DNA of 34,824 bases, taken from positions 1 to 34,824 of the forward strand of contig CAUJFM010000030.1 in assembly GCA_963169595.1 (NCBI GenBank), written 5' to 3'. Position 1 is the stretch's first letter, and every line of letters begins with the position of its first letter. The position numbers and the translations under genes are program-made. The notes beneath the pieces are model-generated. The model did not search any database and was not told the origin of the DNA. It saw only the letters and a program-made list of their open reading frames with translations. Below are positions 31,106 through 34,824 of the stretch, piece by piece. Source of the DNA: Bacteroidota bacterium (lineage in GTDB: Bacteria; Bacteroidota; Bacteroidia; Flavobacteriales_F; PHOS-HE28).

Positions 31106-31980
31106 CAGCTCCAGTGTAGGTCCTCGGAATTCATGCGAAGGTAGCGGCCCACGGCGAACCAGGTGGAGACCACCGAGATGAGCAGGCCCAGCCCCACCAC
31201 GCCCGCGAAGAGCAGGCCCAGGGTCACCACGTTGGTGAAGGCGAGCAGGTCGGGCACATGGTGCTGCGCCAGCTGCAGCAGCCCCACCAGCAGCCCGATG
31301 GCCAGCACCCCGCCCAGGAGGCCCTGCCACAGGCTCTGCCCCATGAAGGGCCGCTTGATGAACCATTGCGTGGCGCCCACCAGGTGCATGGTGCGGATCA
31401 GGAAGCGTTTGCTGTAGATGGCCAGGCGGATGGTGTTGTTGATCAGCGCGATGGCGATCACCAGCAGCAGCGCCGTGAAGCCCAGCACGATGAGCGTGAG
31501 CCGCCCCATGTTGGCATCGATGTTCTCCACCACGGCGGCGTTGTAGGCCACCTCGTCCACGCGGCGGTCCTGCTTCAGGTGCTCCACGATCCACTTCAGG
31601 CTGTCGGGCTGCGCATAGGCGGCCTCCAGGTTCAGCTCCACCGAGGCCAGCAGCGGGTTGCTCCCGAGCACGCCCAGGAAGTCCTCGCCCAGGTCCTGCT
31701 TCAACTGCTCGGCGGCCTCGTCGGCGGTGACGTAGCGCGTGGCCTTGGCGAAGGGCTCGGTGTCCAGCTCCTTGCGGAACTGCATGATGTCCACCTCCTT
31801 CAGGTCGCGCTTCAGGAAGAGCTCCACCCGCACGTTCTCGCGGAAGTAGCGCTCCAGGGCCTGCGCGTTCAGCACCAGGAAGCCCAGCACACCCAGCATG
31901 AACAGCACCAGCGCGATGCCGATCACCGTGCTCACGCTGGCGGTGCGGGTGCGGGCCTTGTAGTGGCGGTCTACTCCCAT
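31105..31980 (-). CDS. ftsX: Cell division protein FtsX (permease-like)
   Basis: MGVDRHYKARTRTASVSTVIGIALVLFMLGVLGFLVLNAQAL...; ABC permease C-terminal half INNTIRLAIYSKRFLIRTMHLVGATQWFIKRPFMGQSLWQGLLGGV. Confidence 0.92.
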   Translation of the reverse strand: MGVDRHYKARTRTASVSTVIGIALVLFMLGVLGFLVLNAQALERYFRENVRVELFLKRDLKEVDIMQFRKELDTEPFAKATRYVTADEAAEQLKQDLGEDFLGVLGSNPLLASVELNLEAAYAQPDSLKWIVEHLKQDRRVDEVAYNAAVVENIDANMGRLTLIVLGFTALLLVIAIALINNTIRLAIYSKRFLIRTMHLVGATQWFIKRPFMGQSLWQGLLGGVLAIGLLVGLLQLAQHHVPDLLAFTNVVTLGLLFAGVVGLGLLISVVSTWFAVGRYLRMNSEDLHWS

Positions 31981-31981
31981 C

Positions 31982-32029
31982 GCCGGCAAATGTAGGGTCG
32001 GCCAAGGCACGCCCTCTACATTTGCCGGC
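31982..32029. promoter_or_regulatory. Mirror-image divergent promoter pair (TACATTTG on both strands)
   Basis: 14-bp perfect inverted repeat GCCGGCAAATGTAG (31982-31995) / CTACATTTGCCGGC (32016-32029), each arm containing TACATTTG reading outward toward ftsX and leuS. Confidence 0.65.
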
Positions 32030-32043
32030 TGTACCTCAGGACC

Positions 32044-34824
32044 ATGCATTACGAGCACAAGGACATCGAGAAGAAGTGGCAGGATGAATGGCGCAAGCGC
32101 GGCACCTACCGGGTGACCAACGATCCGTCCAAGCCCAAGTACTACGTGCTCGACATGTTCCCCTACCCCAGTGGTGCCGGCCTGCACGTGGGGCACCCGC
32201 TCGGCTACATCGCCAGTGACATCGTGGCGCGCTACAAGCGGCACAGCGGCTTCAACGTGCTGCACCCCATGGGCTACGACAGCTTCGGCCTGCCCGCGGA
32301 GCAGTACGCCATCCAGACCGGCCAGCATCCTGCCAAGACCACCGAGATCAACCTGGCCCGCTACCGCGAACAGCTGGACCGCATCGGCTTCAGCTTCGAT
32401 TGGGACCGCGAGGTGCGCACCAGCGATCCGTCCTTCTACAAATGGACGCAGTGGATCTTCCTGCAGCTCTTCGACAGCTGGTACGACCACGCGCAGCAGA
32501 AGGCCCGTCCCATCAGCGAACTGATCGCCTGCTTCGCCGAGAAGGGCAGCGCCGGCCAGGACACCAGCGTGCTCACGGGCGACATCGAGCGCTTCGTGGG
32601 CGGCTTCTCCGCGGCGGAATGGAACGGCTTCGATGAGCGCACCAAGCAGATGGTGCTGCAGCATTTTCGCCTGGCCTACCTCAGCGATGCCTGGGTGAAC
32701 TGGTGCCCCGCGCTGGGCACCGTGCTCGCCAACGACGAGGTGAAGGACGGCGTGAGCGAGCGCGGCGGCCACCCCGTGGAGCGCAAGCGCATGAAGCAGT
32801 GGAGCCTGCGCATCACCGCCTACGCCCAGCGCTTGCTCGATGGGCTGGACGGGCTGGACTGGAGCGAGAGCATCAAGGAGGCCCAGCGCAACTGGATCGG
32901 CCGCAGCGAAGGCGCCACCGTGCGCTTCCCCATCGGTGAGGACTTCATCGAGGTCTTCACCACGCGGCCCGACACGCTCTTCGGCGTCACCTTCATCACC
33001 CTGGCCCCCGAGCATGTGTTGGTGGGCAAGTTCACCACGCCGGACCGCAAGGCCGAGGTGGAGGCCTACGTGAACACGGCCAAGAACCGCAGCGAGCGCG
33101 AGCGCCAGGCCGAGGTGGACAAGGTGAGCGGCGTGTTCACCGGCAGCTACGCGAAGCACCCCTTCACCGGCGCCCCCGTGCCCGTGTGGGTGGGCGATTA
33201 TGTGCTGGCCGGCTATGGCACCGGTGCCGTGATGGCCGTCCCCGGCGGCGACCAGCGCGACTGGCGCTTCGCGAAGCACTTCGGGCTGCCCATCATCGCG
33301 GTGACCGAGGGCGCCGACATCGAGAAGGAGGCCGACGAACGCAAGGACGCCACCATCTGCAGCGAGGGTTTCCTCCAGGGCCATAAGGTGCCGCAGGCCA
33401 TCACCCGCGCCATCCAGGAACTGGAGAAGCTGGGTGCCGGCGAGGGCCGCATCAACTTCCGCCTGCGCGATGCCGCCTTCGGGCGCCAGCGCTACTGGGG
33501 CGAGCCGATCCCCATCTACTACCAGGACGGCATCCCGTACCCGCTGCCCGAGAGCGAGCTGCCGCTGAAGCTGCCCGAGGTGGACAAGTTCCTGCCCACC
33601 GAGGATGGCGAACCACCGCTGGCCCGCGCGGCCAACTGGAGCTACAACGGCTTCCCGTTGGAGACCACCACCATGCCCGGTTGGGCCGGCAGCAGCTGGT
33701 ACTTCCTGCGCTACATGGACCCCAAGAACGAGGGCCGGTTCGCCTCACCCGAGGCCATCAATTACTGGCAGCAGGTGGACCTCTACGTGGGCGGCAGTGA
33801 GCACGCCACTGGCCACCTGCTCTACTTCCGCTTCTGGACCAAGTTCCTCTTCGACCACGGCTACATCAACTTCGATGAGCCCGCGAAGAAGCTGGTGAAC
33901 CAGGGCATGATCCAGGGGGTGTCGGCAATTGCAGGTGTGTTTAAGGTGCGCGTAGTTCCGGGACAAGAGAGTCTTTCGGGAACAACCGGATTCAAATTGG
34001 TTAGTCGATTCGAGCAAGAGGAAGTCGAAGTACTTTCCAGTTTGAATTGGCACAAGAATGAGGATCAGTCAACCTTACATGGAGTTGTAGTGGAGCGTAC
34101 ACCGACTCGTTCGCTAACTGTTCCTATTGACTATGTTGACGGCAATACCGTAGAGATTGGTCGGCTCAAAGAACTAGCTAACGTAGACGGTAGGTTTTCC
34201 TTCTTGAAGGATCAGGACTATTTGAACATTGCTCCAATCGTGGGCAGTGCAGCTCATCACATTGCTGTTCGACGCGAAGTCGATAAGATGTCGAAGTCCA
34301 AGCACAACGTTGTCAATCCTGATCGAATTATTGAAGAGTACGGCGCCGACACCCTGCGGCTGTACGAGATGTTCCTGGGCCCGCTGGAGCAAAGCAAGCC
34401 GTGGGACACCAACGGCATCGAGGGCACCTTCCGCTTCCTGCGGAAGTTCTGGAATCTCTTTCACTTGTCCGCCGAAGCCTCGGCGAAGGCGGATGGTGCT
34501 GGTGAAGCGTTCGGCGTTTCCGACGACGCCCCCACCAAGCCCGAACTGAAGGTCCTGCACGCCACGCTCAAGAAGGTGACCGAGGACATCGAGAAGATGA
34601 GCTTCAACACCAGCGTGGCGCAGTTCATGATCGCGGTGAACGAGCTGGGCAGCTTGAAATGCAATAAGCGCGCGGTGCTGGAACCGCTGGTGATCGCGCT
34701 GGCGCCCTTCGCCCCGCACATCGCCGAGGAGCTGTGGGAGAAGCTGGGCCACCCCACCAGCGTCACCACCGCACCCTGGCCGCAGTGGAGCGCCGAGCAC
34801 CTGGTGGAGGACAGCTTCAGCTAC
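32044..34824 (+). CDS. leuS: Leucine--tRNA ligase (3' truncated by window edge; mosaic)
   Basis: Open for 927 codons from ATG 32044: [89 protein letters not shown] ... [17 protein letters not shown] ... [40 protein letters not shown]. Absent from the ORF track, probably because it has no stop in the window. Confidence 0.97.
33920..34340 (+). other. Low-GC, atypical-codon patch inside leuS spanning the leucine-specific domain and KMSKS loop
   Basis: Hand count 166 G+C in 33961-34320 (about 46%) versus 39/60 (65%) at 34381-34440; frame uninterrupted; codons such as AGT, TTG, CTA, GTA, ATT, GAA dominate. Confidence 0.85.
34464..34497 (+). repeat. Putative intragenic palindromic element in leuS (CTTGTCCGCCGAAGCCTCGGCGAAGGCGGATGGT)
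   Basis: TCCGCC...GGCGGA arms flank GAAGCCTCGGCGAA, encoding an extra [11 protein letters not shown] between conserved [11 protein letters not shown] and [13 protein letters not shown]. Reverse strand encodes the low-complexity peptide FAEASADK. Confidence 0.6.

Follow-up and report, generated by a model that had tools for sequence, protein, structure and literature searches.

The gap between the ftsX and leuS genes contains a perfect inverted repeat which is very probably two ordinary promoters of the primary sigma factor (sigma-ABfr type) placed back to back, one in each arm. One promoter would drive the run of genes ftsX-DUF3098-uppP-truB-queA-ispD, and leuS would be driven by the second. 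The two would carry the same -7 sequence in the context preferred in this genus, with a C before it and a C-rich stretch after it, and because sequence and context are the same in both promoters, the two copies would form a mirror image.

Two outward boxes in a perfect inverted repeat

In the window (the whole stretch of 34,824 nucleotides analysed), the gap measures 63 bp, from the ATG of ftsX (A at 31980, minus strand), a start backed by N-terminal conservation among relatives, to the ATG of leuS (32044). According to Pfam, the minus-strand run comprises ftsX, DUF3098, uppP/BacA, TruB, QueA and IspD. The gap holds exactly one inverted repeat, with 14-nt arms that are 100% complementary and 20 nt between them, and each arm contains an outward-pointing box (Table 1). 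This reproduced both the repeat and the -7-like boxes described in the initial annotation. First-order Markov versions of the window contained on average only 0.03 perfect repeats of at least 14 bp with a loop of at most 60 bp, and the repeat therefore exceeds what composition would produce by chance. A 357 kb sample of the same genome held 9 other such perfect repeats, every one with a loop of 3-14 nt, as against 20 nt in the ftsX/leuS gap. Within leuS, the segment at 33900-34330, just ahead of the KMSKS region, has a GC content of about 0.45-0.5, compared with about 0.65 in its surroundings.

Table 1. Features of the ftsX/leuS intergenic region and its flanking genes (window coordinates)
Feature	Position	Strand	Description
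ftsX	31108..31980	-	FtsX_ECD and FtsX Pfam domains
Left arm of inverted repeat	31982..31995	-	minus strand = CTACATTTGCCGGC
Predicted ftsX promoter -7 box	31987..31994	-	TACATTTG; 6 nt to ftsX ATG
Spacer between arms, 20 bp	31996..32015	.	6 self-pairs vs shuffle mean of 5.5; palindromic no more than chance
Right arm of inverted repeat	32016..32029	+	CTACATTTGCCGGC
Predicted leuS promoter -7 box	32017..32024	+	TACATTTG; 19 nt to leuS ATG
leuS (leucyl-tRNA synthetase)	32044..34824	+	Pfam; continues past the end of the window

The -7 consensus of the Bacteroidota primary sigma factor is TAnnTTTG, refined to TAHHTTTG in F. johnsoniae, where the box usually lies 4-5 nt from the transcription start (PMC6847099; see also PMC9723704 and PMC7366714 for consensus and start spacing). 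Both boxes in the gap match TAnnTTTG, point outward and lie shortly before the start codons. With this spacing, the box next to the ftsX ATG predicts a transcription start at approximately 31981-31982 and a leader of 1-2 nt, and the box before leuS predicts a start at approximately 32029-32030 and a leader of about 14-15 nt. The predicted starts are thus about 47 bp apart, while the boxes themselves are 22 bp apart edge to edge. No motif corresponding to the -33 TTTG element was seen in the base frequencies upstream of the boxes; since this element is weak and barely evident in the RNA-seq of F. johnsoniae as well (PMC6847099), we did not count it as defining. We also considered an extended promoter element, GCCYY just before the boxes, and rejected it, as 2 occurrences were found genome-wide where 2.4 were expected.

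A perfect inverted repeat could in principle also form an RNA hairpin or terminator. However, the site is located between divergent gene starts and not downstream of a gene, has no T-run, and the predicted transcripts begin at the outer edges of the arms, so that neither RNA would hold both. This makes a hairpin or terminator extremely improbable.

Boxes and symmetry among relatives

FtsX used as bait gave a match in 72/78 relatives, those bearing names being mostly Flavobacteriales MAGs; no match was found in five same-genus genomes (G011, G029, G035, G040 and G043), four of which are less than 90% complete. The gaps compared were 41 same-genus copies from 40 genomes, including that of the window, with one genome contributing two. 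The two genes are divergent in 41/41 of these copies, and a TAnnTTYG box (Y = T or C) is present on both sides in 40/41, compared with 0.06% of shuffled gaps. The strict TTTG form occurs on both sides in 10/40 copies and TTCG on both sides in 28/40. The distance from box to ATG is 15-22 nt for leuS in 37/40 and 5-10 nt for ftsX in 31/41. Among more distant copies from the same class the divergent pair was found in 6/9, leuS being absent from the stretch taken in the other 3. The two outward TAnnTTTG promoters proposed in the initial annotation are therefore well supported as predictions, with position and direction kept in 40/41 same-genus copies and a genome-wide pattern, described below, that agrees.

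The relation between the two boxes is a different matter. Identical boxes on both sides were found in 5/40 copies, compared with a shuffle mean of 5.3 for random pairing. In the closest relatives (ftsX 90-91% identical) TACATTTG is kept on both sides, but the outer flanks are unlike between the arms (CCCGCC vs CCGGTC in L004; CCTGCC vs CCGACC in L005). Between the two boxes, the spacer is anywhere from 19 to 507 bp long among relatives, measuring 19-23 bp in 16/40, and the short or long gap class switches about 8 times on the 41-row tree. Conservation of the paired arms, which the initial annotation had put forward as a check, thus holds for the two separate boxes and fails for their symmetry, which is already lost in near relatives. 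That each box is kept while the symmetry is not suggests that there is probably no special shared switch.

Perfect palindromic spacers of 20-22 bp were observed in L005 (GGGCGAGCCATGGCTCGCCC) and in L021/L023 (GGGGCGTGGGATCCCACGCCCC), with sequences that differ between these lineages; in either case, no more than roughly 1 shuffle in 250 matched this. Such a palindrome is absent from the window and from most other short-gap relatives, and was therefore left out of the explanation.

The initial annotation had also suggested co-regulation by one factor binding the palindrome. A dimeric regulator that binds both arms and sets both promoters together would fit the perfect 14-bp dyad in the window, and likewise the palindromic spacers of L005 and L021/L023. 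However, the arms of near relatives are not kept complementary, with boxes no more often equal than in random pairing, variable box letters that drift and flanks that diverge. In addition, the box-to-box spacing varies over the whole range given above, the window's own spacer is no more symmetric than chance, and the palindromes of L005 and L021 are unlike in sequence. The exact 14-mer arm has no further copies in the whole 3.6-Mb assembly; the degenerate search covered -7 pair patterns. A single palindrome-binding factor is therefore not supported, and with arms that are neither conserved nor found elsewhere in the genome we rejected the operator as highly unlikely. The accompanying link between division and translation amounts only to the conserved neighbourhood of ftsX and leuS.

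Boxes across the genome and the likeness of the arms

TAHHTTYG occurs 12 times in the window, compared with 2.2 expected. In 391 kb of DNA from the same genome (the window and sampled contigs, L110-L129), 115 TAHHTTTG or TAHHTTCG boxes yielded 55 box-ATG pairs in which the ATG lay no more than 60 nt away and began an ORF of 100 codons or more, while 53 reversed control boxes in the same DNA gave 4, absolute counts in this sample being somewhat inflated as the contigs were picked partly for TANNTTTGCC or paired boxes. Samples from three further genomes (G009, G041 and G022; L130-L189), which were not picked by box content, showed an equal pattern of boxes near ATGs. Divergent pairs of TAnnTTTG numbered 7 in the window's genome and 0 in the control, and divergent pairs of TAnnTTYG numbered 22, with spacers of 8-38 bp, compared with 1 in the reversed control. 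This suggests that mirrored promoters are a recurring layout, of which ftsX/leuS is a very symmetric example.

Across the window's genome, G009, G041 and G022, TTCG boxes were found 3-8 nt before the ATG of a long ORF 33 times, compared with 2 for reversed-TTCG controls. TAnnTTCG thus looks like a working -7 variant, a second form of the box in this genus; a limited literature search found no paper with that form. In AT-rich relatives from the same class (G064 and G072), TTTG is dominant at this distance from the ATG (24 vs 1). Boxes abutting the ATG, with 3-8 nt between, made up 51/164 box-ATG pairs (31%) in four members of the genus, and 29/154 (19%) in three class relatives counted likewise. 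Such boxes predict that the genus makes many near-leaderless mRNAs, with that of ftsX among them; in F. psychrophilum leaderless mRNAs account for 5.5% (PMC9723704).

Beyond the -7 core, the boxes share a C before it and a C-rich stretch after it. Owing to this shared context, random pairs of 14-mers taken at boxes near ATGs in the window's genome agree on average at about 9/14 positions, with 3% agreeing at 12 or more. Between two arms that each form a -7 promoter box, much of the match is expected. A match of 14/14 is nevertheless unusual even for pairs of boxes (4e-4 per promoter pair, by an independent-column estimate). Since L003, L004 and L005, of the window's clade, have CTACATTTGC on both sides, the remaining matches may be due to luck or to one or two recent changes. 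The complete identity of the arms in the window's species would then combine the shared box context with a few matches that arose by chance or were acquired recently.

In 38/40 copies the boxes on the two sides carry the same T/C letter, and T/C changes on the tree number about 5 per arm and only 6 jointly. These figures, the 14/14 arms of the window and the fully palindromic spacers of two lineages could all reflect mutation and not selection, if strand switching between the arms of a quasi-palindrome copied one arm into the other. Few independent changes on the tree bear on this, however, with about 2 same-way and 0 opposite on the starred branches, and the T/C agreement is missing from other divergent pairs in the window's genome (7 TT, 5 CC and 10 mixed, the ftsX/leuS pair included). 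The variable NN letters are unlike between the arms in most relatives, and a lineage-wide T/C preference can partly explain the agreement, as in G022, where boxes near ATGs are almost solely TTCG. We therefore regard strand switching as very unlikely here. If strand-switch copying, or in some lineages a shared dyad-binding factor, maintained the likeness of the mirror promoter pairs in the genus, this would cover the identical arms, the palindromic spacers of L005 and L021/L023 and the T/C agreement together; we consider it quite unlikely.

Probable polymerase overlap and known promoter types

The footprint of RNA polymerase extends from about -55 to +20. With the starts predicted so close together, the footprints must overlap; in the 63-bp gap a polymerase on one box would cover the other, and the two would probably not be occupied at once. 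The mutual exclusion of polymerases proposed in the initial annotation is thus geometrically likely in the short-gap species, judging from typical footprints, but this geometry is not conserved across relatives. A stronger form, in which a polymerase at one promoter blocks the other as a tuned switch and couples the ftsX operon and leuS inversely, would be consistent with the overlap and with the 16/40 relatives that have short spacers. Against this, the short gap is repeatedly lost or gained on the tree while both genes keep their boxes, and as long-gap relatives retain both promoters without overlap, exclusion is not required. In E. coli, basal firing of the five bidirectional promoters examined was found to be insufficient for polymerase competition (PMC12825309). 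We therefore consider a tuned switch unlikely. Under the preferred explanation of two back-to-back promoters, the overlap would be a by-product of packing and not a conserved switch. With spacing that varies and arm identity that decays, the pair behaves as two independent promoters and not as a palindrome for one factor.

The ftsX/leuS mirror promoters probably belong to an already known promoter type. TACATTTG in both arms fits the TAHHTTTG of F. johnsoniae (PMC6847099), and the direction of the boxes and how far they lie from the start codons fit as well; differences from described sigma-ABfr promoters are the lack of a visible -33 motif, the additional TAnnTTCG boxes of the genus and the predicted, almost leaderless ftsX mRNA. 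The pair also resembles the symmetric bidirectional promoters of Warman, Grainger and colleagues (PMC10268837, PMC12825309) in having mirrored -10/-7 type elements that would drive transcription both ways, with possible competition for polymerase. In that type, however, 7-25 bp separate the two opposing starts, with each -10 element overlapping the other (PMC10268837), whereas the ftsX/leuS boxes are separate and the predicted starts lie further apart. As with ordinary divergent promoters that overlap between adjacent genes, each gene would have its own promoter and the two share a short intergenic region; the pair stands apart from these solely through the unusually exact match between the arms in the window's species.

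These results show how a striking perfect palindrome can arise from two ordinary back-to-back promoters, and repeats of this kind therefore need a test of conservation before they are read as operators. The TTCG boxes, and boxes that abut the ATG, further predict many near-leaderless mRNAs in this uncultured, GC-rich genus of Flavobacteriales.
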